From positions 3,547,501 through 3,611,500 of the forward strand of contig NZ_CP053562.1 of assembly GCF_002085925.2 (NCBI RefSeq): a stretch of 64,000 nucleotides of DNA. Reading direction: 5' to 3'. Position 1 is the stretch's first letter; each line of letters opens with the position of its first letter. Under the pieces are notes generated by a model that made no database searches, was not told the origin of the DNA, and worked only from the letters and a program-made list of their open reading frames with translations. The position numbers were made by a program, and so were the translations under genes. This DNA is from Thioclava electrotropha. GTDB taxonomy: Bacteria; Pseudomonadota; Alphaproteobacteria; Rhodobacterales; Rhodobacteraceae. This document shows positions 15,897 through 58,506 of the stretch, piece after piece.

Positions 15897-15952
15897 GGGG
15901 GCGCTGCCCCCGCTCCTTCGGAGCCCCCCGGGATATTTGGATCAAGAGGAAG
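15897..15952 (+). repeat. Intergenic repeat family I, copy a
   Basis: Hairpin 1 GGGGGC-GCT-GCCCCC, hairpin 2 GCTCC-TTC-GGAGC, then the tail CCCCCGGGATATTT-(4)-CAAGAGGAAG. It lies upstream of pheS, in opposite orientation to copy b at 16077-16134, so the two form a long inverted repeat. The whole 402-bp gap (15812-16213) holds only these two copies and two terminator-like hairpins. Confidence 0.85.
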
Positions 15953-15997
15953 AAAAACGCCCGGCTCGGACCCATCATCGGGCGGCAGACCGGGCGC
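15953..15997 (-). terminator. Terminator-like hairpin upstream of pheS
   Basis: On the minus strand CGCCCGG and CCGGGCG pair across a 25-base loop, which itself can form CCC-ATCATC-GGG. Five T residues follow the stem. No gene on that strand ends here, so it may be a pheS attenuator or the end of a small RNA. No Phe-rich leader peptide is visible. Confidence 0.5.
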
Positions 15998-16076
15998 TTC
16001 CCCTTGAGCGGTCATCGGCGTCCCCGCCTGTACCGCATCTCCGAGTGAACGCGATTCCAGTTAATGAACCACTAAC

Positions 16077-16134
16077 CTTCCTCTTGGTGGAAATATCCCG
16101 GGGGGCTCGTGAAACGAGCGGGGGCAGCGCCCCC
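16077..16134 (-). repeat. Intergenic repeat family I, copy b
   Basis: Reverse-strand copy: GGGGGC-GCT-GCCCCC, hairpin 2 GCTCG-TTTCA-CGAGC, then CCCCCGGGATATTT-(4)-CAAGAGGAAG. It lies downstream of the rplT terminator, in the same orientation as rplT. Hairpin 2 differs from copy a by a compensated base pair (GCTCC/GGAGC against GCTCG/CGAGC). Confidence 0.85.
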
Positions 16135-16157: not shown

Positions 16158-16192
16158 AACGAAAAAGGCCGCCCCAGATGGAGCGGCCCTTC
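16158..16192 (-). terminator. Intrinsic terminator after rplT
   Basis: Minus-strand stem GGGCCGCTCC with GGGGCGGCC around a short loop, followed by TTTTT. It closes the rpmI-rplT transcript 22 bp after rplT. Confidence 0.8.
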
Positions 16193-23289: not shown

Positions 23290-23329
23290 CTTCGACTTGG
23301 TGCAAATATCCCCGCCGGAGGCATCCGGC
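23290..23329 (-). repeat. Intergenic repeat family I, copy c
   Basis: Reverse-strand copy between dgcN and dgcA: stem GCCGGA-TGCC-TCCGGC, then GGGGATATTT-(4)-CAAGTCGAAG. Only one hairpin is clear and the tail has two changes. It starts 20 bp after the dgcN stop in the same orientation, inside what looks like an operon. Confidence 0.75.
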
Positions 23330-23349: not shown

Positions 23350-24357
23350 TCAGATCGCGGCGAGCGCGTCCACCAGCTTGCCAGCCCCGAAGCGGAACGG
23401 GTCGGTCGTGGGCAGGCCCATTTCTTCCTCGACCTTCGCCAGATAGGCCTTGGCCTCGTCCTCACCCATCTTCTGAGTGTTGACCGAGATGCCGACCACC
23501 TGACAGGCGGGATTGGCGACCTTCGCCAGCGCCAGCGCCATATCGCTCAGCTCCTGCAGCGAGGGCAGCTTGTAGCCGGGCAACCCGCGCATATGGGTGC
23601 GCGTCGGCTCATGCGCGAGGATCAGCGCGTCGGGCTGACCGCCATGGATCAGCGCCATCGTCACACCCGAATAGGAGACGTGGAACAGGCTGCCCTGCCC
23701 CTCGATCAGGTCCCAGTGGTCGGGATCGTTATCGGGCGTGAGGTATTCGATCGACCCGGCCATGAAATCCGCGATCACTGCATCGAGCGGCACGCCGTCG
23801 CCGGTGATCAGGATGCCGGTCTGGCCGGTCGCGCGGAAGCTGGCCTTCATGCCGCGCTCGCGCATTTCGCGCTCCATGCAAAGCGCAGTATACATCTTGC
23901 CCGCCGAGCAATCGGTGCCCACGGCAAGGCAGCGCTTGCCGGTGCGCTTCTCGCCATTCGCGATCGGATATTTCACCGAGGGAATGCGCACGTCGTGCAG
24001 CTGACGCCCACAGGCCTTCGCGACCGCGACCAGATCGGGCTCGTCGCGCAGCAGGTTGTGCAGGCCCGAGGCCAGATCGAGCCCCTCTTCCAGCGCTTCC
24101 ACCAGCACCTTCTTCCAGCCCTGCGAGATCACGCCGCCACGGTTTGCGACGCCGATCACCAGCGTCTTGCAGCCTTGTGCGATGGCTTCTTTGATATCGA
24201 GATCGGGGATGCCCATGTCGGCTTGGCATCCCTCCATCCGGTACTGGCCGACGGCATATTCGGGCCGCCAGTCTTTGATCCCCTGCGCGACTTTCGCGGA
24301 CAAGGGATCGGGGGCATCGCCCAGGAACAGTAGATAAGGGGTGTCGATCAGCGACAT
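23350..24357 (-). CDS. dgcN: DUF1611 / D-glutamate N-acetyltransferase DgcN family
   Basis: 335 residues. An N-terminal Rossmann-like domain is followed by a P-loop-like motif GTDCSAGKMYT at residues 147-157. The family (DUF1611) includes DgcN, described in marine bacteria as the acetyltransferase that turns D-glutamate into N-acetyl-D-glutamate for DgcA. Both genes are adjacent here, in that order, with dat behind them. The 283-bp spacer to mcl1 would hold the promoter. Confidence 0.83.
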   Translation of the reverse strand: MSLIDTPYLLFLGDAPDPLSAKVAQGIKDWRPEYAVGQYRMEGCQADMGIPDLDIKEAIAQGCKTLVIGVANRGGVISQGWKKVLVEALEEGLDLASGLHNLLRDEPDLVAVAKACGRQLHDVRIPSVKYPIANGEKRTGKRCLAVGTDCSAGKMYTALCMEREMRERGMKASFRATGQTGILITGDGVPLDAVIADFMAGSIEYLTPDNDPDHWDLIEGQGSLFHVSYSGVTMALIHGGQPDALILAHEPTRTHMRGLPGYKLPSLQELSDMALALAKVANPACQVVGISVNTQKMGEDEAKAYLAKVEEEMGLPTTDPFRFGAGKLVDALAAI

Positions 24358-29110: not shown

Positions 29111-29153
29111 CTTCCTCTTGGCAGAAATATCCCCGCCGGAGGCTCCCTCCGCC
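29111..29153 (-). repeat. Intergenic repeat family I, copy d
   Basis: Reverse-strand copy between convergent arsR and plsC: stem CGGAGG-GAG-CCTCCG, then GGGGATATTT-(4)-CAAGAGGAAG. It begins about 9 bp after the plsC stop, in the orientation of plsC. Confidence 0.82.
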
Positions 29154-29162
29154 GCCACCCGC

Positions 29163-29938
29163 TCAGGGCTTCGGCAGCGCGAACCCGGCCTCCAGCATCA
29201 GCGCATCCGAGCGCGGCTCGACCACTGCCTCGACCGCCGCCAGCGTCTGCGGCGCAGAGCCCGCCGCCTCGATCGCCGGCAGGAATTCGGTCACCGCCAC
29301 GCCCGACCGGATCGGCCAGCCGCGCTTGCTCCAGAACAGGCCCGCATTGGTCGCGGCGGGCACCACCGGCAGCTTCGTGGCCTCGGCCACGACACCCACG
29401 CCCTGCTTGTAACGGCGCCTCTCGCCCGGCGGCACGCGCGTGCCCTCGGGATAGATGATCAGCTGCCCCAGCCCATGCGTCGCGCGCGCCTCTTCGACCG
29501 CGCCCAGCATCACCTTCATCGCCTCCGACCCCTTCGAGCGGTCGATCGGAATGCAGCCCGCCTTATGCGCAAACCACCCCATCACTGGCACGTTCAGCAG
29601 CGCCTTCTTCATCACGAAGGCCCGGCGCGGCAGGTGATTGGCGAGGATCAGAATGTCGAAAAGCTCTGATGCTTGGCCGCGACGATGCAGTCGCCCTCGG
29701 GCGGCGTGCCGCGCAGCTCATAGCGCAGCCCCAGATAGACCCGCGCCATATCCAGCAGATGCTGCGTCCAGATACCGGCGGTGCGATGCACGCCGGCCCG
29801 CCCCTTGGGCAGCACCTGAAACACAAGCCCCCACGCCCCGATCAGCACCGTCGCGAGCGCGATGTGAACGTAGTAAATCCCGGTCATCACATGGGTCAGC
29901 GGCGTGACTTTTCCGGGGCGGCGCGAAGGGTCGGACAT
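29163..29938 (-). pseudogene. plsC: 1-acyl-sn-glycerol-3-phosphate acyltransferase, interrupted by a -1 frameshift
   Basis: The N-terminal part (29938 to about 29660) has a membrane helix and reads ...VAAKHQSF, then hits a stop. The C-terminal part in the next frame begins DILILANHLPRRAF and carries the PEGTR block. The break is at the A run 29659-29662 (T on the coding strand) and falls inside the HxxxxD catalytic motif; adding one base restores KHQSFFD. Restored, it is about 258 residues. The ATG overlaps the ftsX stop by one base. It makes phosphatidic acid from lysophosphatidate, likely essential unless a paralogue exists, so a sequencing error is plausible. Confidence 0.85.
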
Positions 29939-46135: not shown

Positions 46136-46195
46136 ATCCCTCACTTACGGCCCCTTGCGAGGGCTGTCGAGATGAGGCAGATCGAAGGGATGAAC

Positions 46196-47206
46196 ATGAG
46201 CCTCGACGACAAGCCCGACAACACGGCAAAACCGCATGACCGGCTCGCGGAAGCCTTGGCCAACGACATGGCGGCGGTGGATGCGCTGATCGCCGAGCGC
46301 ATGGCCTCGGAAAACGCGCCGCGCATCCCCGAAGTGACCGCGCATCTGGTCGGCGCGGGCGGCAAACGGCTGCGGCCGATGCTGACCGTCGCGGCGGCGC
46401 GGCTGTGCGGCTACGAGGGCAGCCTGCATCACAACCTCGCGGCAGCGGTCGAGTTCATCCATACCGCGACGCTGCTGCATGACGATGTGGTCGACGAGAG
46501 CAAGCAGCGCCGGGGCCGCCCGACCGCGAACCTGCTCTGGGACAACAAGTCGAGCGTGCTCGTTGGTGATTACCTGTTTGCGCGGTCCTTCCAGCTGATG
46601 ACCGACACCGACAACCTGCGGGTTCTGTCGATCCTGTCGAACGCCTCCGCCGTCATCACCGAGGGCGAGGTGCTGCAGCTGTCGGCCGCGGAAGACCTGA
46701 ACACGACCGAGGACACCTATTACAAGGTGGTGCGTGGCAAGACCGCGGCGCTGTTCTCGGCGGCGACCGAGGCGGGCGCGGTTCTGGCCGGTGCACCGGA
46801 GGATCAGATCGCGGCTCTGCACGATTACGGCGAAAGCCTCGGGATCGCGTTCCAAGTGGTCGACGATCTGCTGGACTATCTCAGCGATGCCGAGACGATG
46901 GGCAAGAACGTGGGCGACGATTTCCGCGAGCGCAAGCTGACCCTGCCGCTGATCAAGGCGCTGGCGAAAGCCGACGGCGAGGCACGCGCTTTCTGGACCC
47001 GCACCATCGACAAGGGCGACCAGCGCGACGGCGATCTGGAGCATGCGATGGAGCTGCTGCACGCGACCGGCGCGCTGGAAGAGACCCGCGCGGCGGCCCT
47101 CGAATGGGCCGATCGCGGGCGCGAGCGGCTCAAGGTGCTGCCCGAGAGCGATCTGCGGCAGATGCTGGACGATCTGGCGGATTACGTGGTGGCGCGGTTG
47201 CGCTGA
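46196..47206 (+). CDS. ispB: All-trans polyprenyl diphosphate synthase
   Basis: 336 residues. Both aspartate-rich motifs are present: LLHDDVVDESKQRRGRP near 94 and VVDDLLDY near 222. It builds the long isoprenoid tail of ubiquinone (probably C50 in this group, so ddsA is an equivalent name). ATG 46196 has GAAGGGA before it; ATGs at 46172 and 46190 are alternatives. Repeat copy e begins at the base after its stop. Confidence 0.93.
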   Translation: MSLDDKPDNTAKPHDRLAEALANDMAAVDALIAERMASENAPRIPEVTAHLVGAGGKRLRPMLTVAAARLCGYEGSLHHNLAAAVEFIHTATLLHDDVVDESKQRRGRPTANLLWDNKSSVLVGDYLFARSFQLMTDTDNLRVLSILSNASAVITEGEVLQLSAAEDLNTTEDTYYKVVRGKTAALFSAATEAGAVLAGAPEDQIAALHDYGESLGIAFQVVDDLLDYLSDAETMGKNVGDDFRERKLTLPLIKALAKADGEARAFWTRTIDKGDQRDGDLEHAMELLHATGALEETRAAALEWADRGRERLKVLPESDLRQMLDDLADYVVARLR

Positions 47207-47266
47207 GGGGGGGCTCTGCCCCCCCGCCCTGCGGGCTCCCCCGGGGATATTTGGGTCAAGAGGAAG
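47207..47266 (+). repeat. Intergenic repeat family I, copy e
   Basis: Hairpin 1 of seven G and seven C around five bases, hairpin 2 GCCC-TGC-GGGC, then CCCCCGGGGATATTT-(4)-CAAGAGGAAG. It starts at the base after the ispB stop. Its tail, read on the minus strand, supplies the last three Ser codons and the TGA of ispE. Confidence 0.88.
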
Positions 47267-48137
47267 AGGCGCGGCTTTGGGGCTGCGCCTTTTGCGTCTG
47301 ATCGCCGAGCATGCCAGACGCGCGCCACCAGTCGGGGCGACGTTGGGCCAGCATCGCCTCGGCGGCCTGCGCTCCGTCCAGCGTCTCGAACAGCGCGAAA
47401 CAGGTGGCGCCCGAGCCCGACATCCGCGCGAGGCGGCAGCCGGGCAGCGTCATAAGCCCGTCCAGAACCTCCCCGATCACCGGGGCGGAGGCGATGGCGG
47501 GGGCCTGCAGGTCGTTGCGCTGGGTCGCGAGCCAGTCGATGCAATCGGGCGCGCCGCTGAAGGTCGGAAGCGCTTCCGGCATCGGGGGATTGTCCTTCGA
47601 ATCGAGCCCTTTGAAGATCGCAGGCGTCGGCACTTCCACGCGCGGATTGACCAGAAGCGCGGGCAGCGGCGGCAGGGTCACGGGGTCCAGCGTCTCGCCG
47701 ATGCCGCGCACGCGCTGGGGCTGCGGCGTCAGGCACATCGGCACGTCTGCCCCAAGTTGCGCGGTCTCTGACGGGAGCAGCTGGTCCCAAAGCGCAGCCA
47801 GCCCGCGCAGCGCAGCCGCCGCGTCTGACGATCCACCGCCGATGCCCGAGGCGGGCGGCAGATATTTGTCGAGATGGATCTCGGCCCCCTGCCCCGCCGG
47901 GCGCGACAGGAGGGACGCGGCCTTCAGCACGAGGTTCGATGGGTCGGCGGGTACGCCTGCCGCCTCCGGCCCCGCGACGCTGAGCGACAGCGCGTCGCTC
48001 TCGCGCAGCACCAGCCGGTCGCCCATCGGCCCGAAGGCCACGAGGCTGTCGAGCAGGTGATAGCCATCGGCCCGCTGGCCGATGACATGCAGCGTCAGGT
48101 TGATCTTCGCCGGCGCGAAGGCGTCAATTATTCGCAT
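47256..48137 (-). CDS. ispE: 4-diphosphocytidyl-2-C-methyl-D-erythritol kinase
   Basis: 293 residues of the GHMP kinase fold. It phosphorylates CDP-methylerythritol in the non-mevalonate isoprenoid pathway. Seen: AFAPAKINLTLHV at the start, the ATP loop LPPASGIGGGSSDAAAAL near 92 and the C-terminal MSGSGATCFALF near 245. Its first 14 bases overlap the end of the TPR gene. Its end (RASSS, stop) lies within repeat copy e, so the natural C-terminus may have been replaced by the repeat. Confidence 0.95.
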   Translation of the reverse strand: MRIIDAFAPAKINLTLHVIGQRADGYHLLDSLVAFGPMGDRLVLRESDALSLSVAGPEAAGVPADPSNLVLKAASLLSRPAGQGAEIHLDKYLPPASGIGGGSSDAAAALRGLAALWDQLLPSETAQLGADVPMCLTPQPQRVRGIGETLDPVTLPPLPALLVNPRVEVPTPAIFKGLDSKDNPPMPEALPTFSGAPDCIDWLATQRNDLQAPAIASAPVIGEVLDGLMTLPGCRLARMSGSGATCFALFETLDGAQAAEAMLAQRRPDWWRASGMLGDQTQKAQPQSRASSS

Positions 48138-53629: not shown

Positions 53630-53687
53630 GAGGGCCAGCCCCCTCGGGCTTCGCCCTCACCCCCGGGATATTTTTGCCAATACGAAT
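53630..53687 (+). repeat. Intergenic repeat family I, copy f
   Basis: Hairpin 1 GAGGG-N6-CCCTC, hairpin 2 GGGC-TTC-GCCC, then CCCCGGGATATTTTT-GCCAATACGAATGGG, a diverged tail. It fills the convergent spacer to the GNAT gene and starts at the base after the preceding stop. Confidence 0.78.
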
Positions 53688-58089: not shown

Positions 58090-58506
58090 TTTGCGCGGAC
58101 GGCCTGTAAGCCGGATTTTGTCCCGGGGGCTTGCACCCCCATGGATGACCATTCCTCTCGCCCTGCGATTGCTCACAGGGTCCAGCTGCCAACCCGGATC
58201 GCTCGGGGCGAAGCTCCCCTGCCGTCACCGCAAGCGGCGCAGCACGCGATCCCTATTCGGCGTTGCTCCCGGTGGGGCTTGCCGTGCCGGTCCTGTTACC
58301 AGTCCCGCGGTGGGCTCTTACCCCACCGTTTCACCCTGACCCCGGCCGAAACCGAGGCGGTCTGTTTTCTGTGGCGCTTTCCGTCGGGTTTCCCCGCCCG
58401 GGCGTTACCCGGCACCGTTGCTTCATGGAGTCCGGACTTTCCTCGGGCCCCCGGCTACCCGCATTCACGGGGCTACGGGAACTCGCGGCCATCCAGCCAT
58501 CCGCGC
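58090..58506 (-). ncRNA. rnpB: RNase P RNA (class A)
   Basis: About 417 nt, catalytic RNA that trims the 5' leader of pre-tRNA. On the minus strand the universal blocks are seen in order: GAGGAAAGTCCGGAC near the 5' end, AGGGTGAAACGGTG, GGTAAGAGCCCACCG in the middle, and ACAAAATCCGGCTTACAG at the 3' end. The termini pair as GCGCGGATGGC with GCCGTCCGCGC (helix P1), which sets the ends to within a few bases. Short reading frames on both strands here are not genes. Confidence 0.95.

Follow-up and report, generated by a model that had tools for sequence, protein, structure and literature searches.

Dispersed gene-end elements of Rhodobacteraceae and a predicted small RNA family whose guides match their tails

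Trans-acting base-pairing small RNAs are a general class in the Alphaproteobacteria, and it is with them that we compare here a short intergenic element of Thioclava electrotropha, six copies of which lie in one stretch of 64,000 nucleotides (contig NZ_CP053562.1 of assembly GCF_002085925.2, positions 3,547,501 to 3,611,500; hereafter the window), together with a predicted small RNA encoded between two of these copies. Each copy, or unit, is laid out as hairpin(s)-GGGATATTT-N4-tail, with GATATTT as its core. The small RNA resembles the class in its own promoter, 5' stem-loop, guide, intrinsic terminator and paralogues, all of them predicted here, and differs from it in that the guide has the same sense as dispersed gene-end tags instead of being complementary to a leader, changes between genera along with these tags, and belongs to a gene flanked by its own tags.

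The unit itself shares with intrinsic (Rho-independent) terminators a GC-rich hairpin at gene 3' ends, but it has no U-run: GATATTT-N4-CAA directly follows the hairpin, with a fixed N4 and a lineage-specific downstream word, and at two sites of the window T-run terminators stand beside it. Repetitive extragenic palindromic (REP) sequences, bacterial interspersed mosaic elements (BIME) and miniature inverted-repeat transposable elements (MITE) are likewise short palindromic intergenic repeats, found singly or as inverted pairs with a preference for gene ends; in the present case, by contrast, conservation is highest in a non-palindromic core and tail that enclose a free N4, there is a cognate small RNA, and no linked transposase recurs. 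A REP-type 5' tetranucleotide was not seen in core-aligned copies, in which variable hairpin lengths could hide a word at variable distance. Guide RNAs of clustered regularly interspaced short palindromic repeats (CRISPR), of obligate mobile element-guided activity (OMEGA) systems and of bridge recombinases also combine a constant hairpin, a variable guide and DNA sites next to a fixed short motif, whereas here the guide is of about 11 nt with a central wobble, there is no array, and no recurrent effector or recombinase was seen among the genes linked to 121 loci. Finally, the HRC-8-4 motif is, like the unit, a Rhodobacterales-restricted structured intergenic RNA with a terminator-like stem (PMC8632094); the part of its description considered shows no guide or dispersed targets. 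The unit and guide sequence words searched for occur in none of the papers covered, no relevant paper was apparent among those listed for GGGATATTT, and no description was met with otherwise in the open-access literature, outside which lie most subscription papers. A structured gene-end repeat is of an ordinary kind; to our knowledge, a guide-RNA family drifting with dispersed gene-end tags has not been described.

Units 1 and 2 of the window face each other with their tails between rplT and pheS, and the 124-bp spacer that separates them (15953-16076) holds the predicted small RNA gene on the minus strand, in which a pair of TTAA-type boxes precedes a hairpin, the 11-nt guide and the T-run terminator. 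The promoter region (16043..16076, minus strand) is CtrA-like, with TTAG at 16075-16072 and TTAAC at 16064-16060, 11 bp apart. It is followed on the same strand by the conserved 29-nt scaffold hairpin GCGGTACA-GGCG-GGGA-CGCC-GATG-ACCGC (16008..16036), taken as the predicted 5' end of the RNA, by the guide TCAAGGGGAAG (15997..16007), to which the YCAAGAGGAAG tails of units 1 and 2 correspond, and by the linker and T-run terminator (CGCCCGG...CCGGGCGTTTTT, 15953..15996). Four guides are found in this genome (TCAAGGGGAAG, CCAAGGGGAAG, GCAGTTGGAAG and CCAAGACGAAC). They correspond to the tail classes YCAAGAGGAAG, GCAATTGGAAG and CCAANNCGAAG, and the centre of CCAANNCGAAG is variable.

In order to follow this correspondence more widely, genome contigs were scanned with the scaffold alone, the nearest core on each side being taken regardless of the guide, which gave at least 120 loci. 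Among the 120 loci listed, a left unit is present in 103, a right unit in 89, both in 80 and none in 8, and, when wobble is counted, 188 of the 192 flanking tails correspond to the guide at no fewer than 9 of 11 positions. Mean guide-tail identity is 9.375, as compared with 6.08 in permuted pairs (200 permutations, none above 6.35). The loci carry 96 distinct guides; 89 of these have a tail, and for 87 of the 89 guide and tail agree at 10 or more positions (identical or A/G). The 312 guide-tail differences are strongly one-sided, tail A against guide G accounting for 243 and the reverse for 11, as predicted if base pairing joins the guide to the tail complement through a central G-U; an A/G difference falls at guide positions 4-6 in 172 of the 188 pairs, and a perfect match is seen in just 4. 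Guide-compatible words that lack a TATTT core occur at a frequency close to chance (31, versus 24 for reversed words), and 175 lie within units. By name, 80 of the listed loci are mostly from Rhodobacterales, the exceptions being Erythrobacter, Hyphomicrobium and Planctomycetota bins, which may be misbinned. At one intergenic locus, between an acyl-CoA dehydrogenase gene and a CoA ligase-like gene (Pfam), the RNA is met repeatedly, in about 22 of 121 loci, and in both orientations (12 versus 9 in the 21 loci that lie no more than 600 bp from the dehydrogenase gene); the guides vary there, each agreeing with its own tails except for the right tail of one locus (L328).

Guides and tails also change together between lineages. 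Within 28 genomes picked by hand, most of them with known tails, the scaffold was found at 3 or fewer mismatches in 23 and the control in 0; for 14 of 19 tail dialects, from 18 genomes, a guide of the same genome matches at 10 or more of 11 positions (identity or A/G), as against a mean of 1.34 and a maximum of 7 in 2000 permutations of genomes. The core preceded by the second of the two main hairpin forms, CCTCCGGCGGGGATATTT, occurs in 57 of 100 family genomes taken one per genus (control 0), and among the matches listed the tails are near-constant within a genome and different between genera, for instance GACACATGATG in G063, AGCAAAAGATG in G093 and CCAAGAAGTG in G001, with at least two tails in G091 (genomes and loci are cited by our G and L numbers). 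The tail pattern of T. electrotropha matches 17 of the 100 genomes, and a looser one 74, some no better than the control. The exact core CCCCCGGGATATTT was met in 2 of 190 genomes across the class, namely T. electrotropha (82 matches) and, with a single match, a member of another family; this 14-base word misses two family members in the 190-genome draw and bounds the exact form only. Judged by these patterns, the core and hairpins are common across the family and the tail is a lineage dialect. G063 (L128-L136) and L082 show units doubled back to back into palindromes of about 110 bp, and in 6 of the 9 copies of G063 both N4 stretches match each other by eye.

The units of the window were compared with orthologous places in close congeners. 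Unit 3 (23290) stands at the orthologous place in G299, G297 and G294, and in G295 with a decayed core; unit 4 (29111) in G299 and G297, decayed in G295; unit 5 (47207) in G299, G297 and G295, and with a changed core in G294; and unit 6 (53630) in G299, G297 and G295. G293 lacks a unit there, and anchoring was not possible in some distant congeners. The tail class of unit 4 is CAAGAGGAAG in T. electrotropha and G297 and CAAGGCGAAG in G299, and that of unit 3 is CAAGTCGAAG in T. electrotropha and CAAGAGGAAG in G294. Orthologous units with switched tail classes imply that units are inherited and that their tails can be rewritten in place. The 124-bp spacer has homologues at rplT-pheS in G299, G297, G295 and G289, relative to all four of which the window copy is inverted; G294 and G291 have units at rplT-pheS without this spacer. 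Spacer matches number four in T. electrotropha and 1 to 5 in 14 of 16 genus members, with none in two.

The scaffold shows the signature of an RNA. In 182 distinct copies its closing pair is G-C in 77, A-T in 53, G-T in 52 and A-C in none, against 22 expected for A-C under independence (P 1e-16); this pair lies outside the search pattern, though the sequences are related and thus not independent. With that caution, closing pairs of these three kinds and never A-C show the scaffold to be RNA, and define its strand. The inner stem is GGCG/CGCC in 171 copies, GGCT/AGCC in 4, and GGCA/TGCC, GGGG/CCCC and GGCC/GGCC in one each, with a G-U or one broken pair in four; as most copies were selected by an exact inner-stem match, covariation is under-sampled there. 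Coding by the guide was considered and set aside by eye, early stops occurring in several copies (L349 and L351 among them) and the spacing 3' of the guide varying by single bases. A search of Rfam 15 with the window cassette, at E up to 10, gave only mir-877 at 13.2 bits, below its cut-off of 47, and 14 related loci gave no family match. Promoter boxes of the form TTAA[CG] were found in 76 of 119 loci and in 1 of 215 control stretches. The full CtrA site is given as TTAA(N7)TTAA in the part of the source consulted (PMC6180460), and the boxes suggest that the small RNA could be under CtrA control. The anatomy of the unit, the RNA structure, the promoter boxes and the match and coevolution of guides and tails are established at the level of sequence.

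In the window, all six units reported by the initial annotation were recovered at the positions that it gave. Unit 1 (15897..15952, plus strand) consists of two hairpins, CCCCCCGG, the core at 15932-15938, N4 and the tail CAAGAGGAAG at 15943-15952, and forms one flank of the small RNA cassette, antisense and upstream of pheS. The second flank, unit 2 (16077..16134, minus strand), has two hairpins, the core at 16091-16097, N4 and the tail CAAGAGGAAG at 16077-16086, and lies 3' of rplT and of the rplT terminator. Single hairpins are found in unit 3 (23290..23329, minus strand; core 23304-23310, tail CAAGTCGAAG), after a DUF1611 gene (23350-24357), and in unit 4 (29111..29153, minus strand; core 29125-29131, tail CAAGAGGAAG), after an acyltransferase-like gene (29163-29615). 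Unit 5 (47207..47266, plus strand), with two hairpins, its core at 47246-47252 and the tail CAAGAGGAAG, begins one base past the stop codon of a polyprenyl synthetase gene (46172-47206), and unit 6 (53630..53687, plus strand) has hairpins, the core at 53667-53673 and the tail CAATACGAAT, to which the nearest guide of the same genome is CCAAGACGAAC at G000:C1:1188638. The tail had been described as fixed, and it is exactly CAAGAGGAAG in four of the six units, while units 3 and 6 depart from it with CAAGTCGAAG and CAATACGAAT.

The stems next to the tail had also been read as compensatory change. This holds for GCTCC/GGAGC, GCTCG/CGAGC, GCCC/GGGC and GGGC/GCCC, which vary and stay paired; CGGAGG/CCTCCG and GCCGGA/TCCGGC, on the other hand, have a common conserved right arm (GCCTCCGGC) and consequently do not form a compensatory pair. 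Hairpins are predicted in all six units, with weak folding z-scores for single units (-0.37 to -2.09). Ahead of the core, copies of this genome carry two main hairpin forms, either GGGGCKCYGCCCC with a variable second hairpin and CCCCCGG, or GCCTCCGGCGG; since the same tails are found on both, the tail is independent of the hairpin. In 45 copies the alignment reads GATATTT, two free bases, mostly a purine, a pyrimidine, CAA, three bases and GAA; these copies were picked by GATATTT-N4-CAA-N3-GAA, so that invariance at those positions is by construction, which does not apply to the flanks, the purine and the pyrimidine. The N4 is free and the tail fixed in the aligned copies. Upstream of three units of this genome (L005, L007 and L018), about 60 bases are near-identical, and by eye a short loop stretch and the N4 differ among them, as if hypervariable. 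Elsewhere in the window, positions 58091-58504 on the minus strand encode the bacterial RNase P RNA of class A (Rfam RF00010, 277 bits).

The abundance of the unit was estimated with a weight matrix built from 41 distinct copies of this genome, trained on units that include some of those later counted. In 464 kb, made up of twenty spaced 20-kb stretches and the window, the matrix found 18 units, all above 20 bits, and in the window the six alone; four passes over first-order Markov shuffles gave no site at 10 bits or more. Across the whole genome (4.40 Mb), GGGATATTTNNNNCAAGAGGAAG is matched 156 times when up to 3 mismatches are allowed and GGGATATTTNNNNCAANNNGAAG 98 times exactly; the count for the reversed-pattern control is 0. 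All eight occurrences of CAAGAGGAAG in the 464 kb, which represent the own dialect only, are inside units, and the idea that the tail is a DNA uptake word was rejected, CAAGAGGAAG not being found outside units in this sample.

Concerning placement, a larger sample from T. electrotropha and congeners contained 84 units, of which 32 cassette units and 1 within a predicted gene were set aside. The 51 remaining units lie between convergent genes (26), in sense between tandem genes (16), antisense between tandem genes (7) or between divergent genes (2), so that 42 have a same-strand gene upstream, by rough gene calls from a home-made codon-usage finder and with orthologous copies counted apart; in the unbiased count of 18 units the figure is 13. 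This placement and the recurrence at orthologous places in close congeners support the interpretation of the initial annotation as regards a selected element at gene 3' ends, five of the six window units indeed lying 3' of a same-strand gene and the exception being unit 1, antisense between rplT and pheS. Its further proposal of a transcript end is not supported as a full account, and the interpretation is therefore borne out in part. A hairpin and T-run terminator stands 3' of rplT before unit 2 (16162..16189, minus strand), and another immediately 3' of unit 5 (47267..47294, plus strand), the latter present in the five congeners aligned there. Of 30 family loci, 27 could be parsed, and 22 of these have TTTT at most 130 nt from the rplT stop. 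Both sites keep terminators of their own, which is why a transcript end is not supported as a full account, and this likewise weakens the candidate role of units as the only terminators.

The scaffold was also found on plasmids of Paracoccus, Cereibacter, Leisingera, Phaeobacter, Mesorhizobium, Rhizobium, Legionella and others. Both Legionella copies retain a guide and a unit, and the Legionella and rhizobial plasmids carry the RNA with no obvious partner gene. Two rhizobial plasmid copies (L351, L352) have a common scaffold and the guide TCAAGGGTTAGG near replication genes, with no adjoining unit seen. A viral contig (L348 2508) carries the scaffold without units, and the bases 3' of this scaffold resemble by eye, in inverted form, the region upstream of a divergent gene. 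Weak matches, such as those in Streptomyces, Sphingobium and Halorussus, fall in genes and look like chance, as was also judged for the weak match in an annotated gene of one Stenotrophomonas phage (two records) in a phage collection. No effector gene recurs among the neighbour clusters (of at least 4 loci) of 121 loci, and a Pfam scan of ten cluster representatives gave nine metabolic enzymes and one TrcR regulator match, with no nuclease or recombinase. Single exceptions are a recombinase-family gene near the L. longbeachae plasmid copy and an ISAs1 transposase adjoining the Cereibacter copy.

The explanation that we favour, with moderate confidence, is that the elements are target sites of a trans-acting family of guide small RNAs that pair at the RNA level. 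Each RNA would begin with the conserved 29-nt hairpin, continue directly into the 11-nt guide and end in an intrinsic terminator, its gene being flanked in most loci by two inverted units; several such RNAs would be made per genome, and the dispersed units would use their words. The guide, having the sequence of the tail, would base-pair with the tail complement, in most cases through a G-U wobble at the centre. As the message of a gene carries, in its tail, the same sequence as the guide, it cannot pair with the guide; the complement alone can, and this would be available in RNA that comes from the side of the tail or in the bottom strand of the DNA. We infer transcription of the small RNA, its pairing partner and the outcome as follows. 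The RNA would pair with transcripts entering the unit from the tail side, candidates being read-through from a convergent neighbour, antisense RNA and read-through of the small RNA itself, which would carry the complement of the tail, N4, AAAUAUCCC and the hairpin. Pairing may then lead to cleavage in, or arrest at, the AU-rich stretch by the hairpin, and the unit would thereby shield the gene on its hairpin side. Pairing at the RNA level is preferred because the RNA is carried by plasmids with no linked effector that recurs and because RNase E is reported to prefer AU-rich stretches in Rhodobacter sphaeroides (PMC6238624, in the part consulted). A wider proposal, which we offer as a tentative one and consider less likely than not, is a CRISPR-independent RNA-guided marking of the genome, in which constant-hairpin RNAs with lineage-specific 11-nt guides would bring the machinery of the host to some hundred guide-tagged gene ends per genome, to act there on DNA or nascent transcripts, the units serving as directional insulators and guide and tags drifting together as a dialect.

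Several observations weigh against the favoured explanation. The near-universal central wobble (172 of 188 pairs) is not accounted for by plain antisense pairing. The dialects of G001, G052, G035 and G050 and one of the two in G091 have no matching recovered guide, and G009, G041 and G086 have units and no scaffold within 3 mismatches, which, if they are included, brings the matched dialects to 14 of 22. Among the 51 units, 7 are antisense between tandem genes and 2 lie between divergent genes, and a simple T-run was found after the guide in only 45 of 121 loci. Moreover, the choice of RNA over DNA rests on the absence of a recurrent effector neighbour and on precedents of RNase E and antisense RNA.

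That choice brings forward RNA-guided recognition of DNA, in which a chromosomal protein would bind the hairpin and the guide would pair with the bottom DNA strand of the tail, GATATTT playing a part like that of a short adjacent motif; the complex would stop RNA polymerase just past the unit hairpin or, as an alternative outcome, repress the promoter of the small RNA itself, which the left tail adjoins. Such recognition would suit the strict order of core, N4 and guide match, the near-chance frequency of core-less guide-compatible words and the purine-rich guides, purine richness being favourable to RNA-DNA hybrids. The left core typically starts 57-66 bp before the scaffold, so that the tail lies in the promoter region, and the resemblance by eye of the L348 sequence after the scaffold to the start region of the upstream divergent gene points the same way. 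The neighbours of the 121 loci, with their metabolic enzymes and TrcR match in place of an effector, and the Legionella and rhizobial plasmids that carry the RNA with no obvious partner gene argue against it, and we regard it as rather unlikely, although by no means negligible.

A mobile repeat family, with the cassette as a small transposable unit, solo units as non-autonomous copies and the RNA guiding a recombinase to the tail, might explain the palindromic pairs of G063, the spread of the scaffold on plasmids across orders, the cassette inverted between species at rplT-pheS and lying either way round (12 and 9) at the dehydrogenase/CoA-ligase locus, and the recombinase-family and ISAs1 genes beside the L. 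longbeachae and Cereibacter copies. We find it improbable, as units stay at orthologous sites while their tails change, N4 is free whereas the tail is fixed, and no transposase family recurs among the neighbours of the 121 loci. Still less credit can be given to a variant intrinsic terminator or 3' stability hairpin and nothing more, with a tail that tunes termination and an incidental match to the small RNA; a hairpin followed by GATATTT at gene 3' ends speaks for it, but the separate T-run terminators at rplT and unit 5 had already disfavoured it and 188 of 192 tails match the guide. Equally hard to believe is a single DNA-binding protein that recognises the tail and the guide DNA without base pairing, since the bipartite, spaced and dialect-like site could suit a protein, but the one-directional A-to-G difference and the RNA covariation with G-U and never A-C do not.

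Taken together, each lineage seems to have its own small-RNA "password" at about a hundred gene ends. If the favoured explanation is true, a bacterial family would address many gene ends at once by short guide RNAs, with an address that shifts between genera in step across sites, raising the question of how one guide coevolves with a hundred targets. Guide RNAs would then serve a general purpose in bacteria outside CRISPR, programmable transcript boundaries might become available, and an abundant repeat of the Rhodobacteraceae would be explained.
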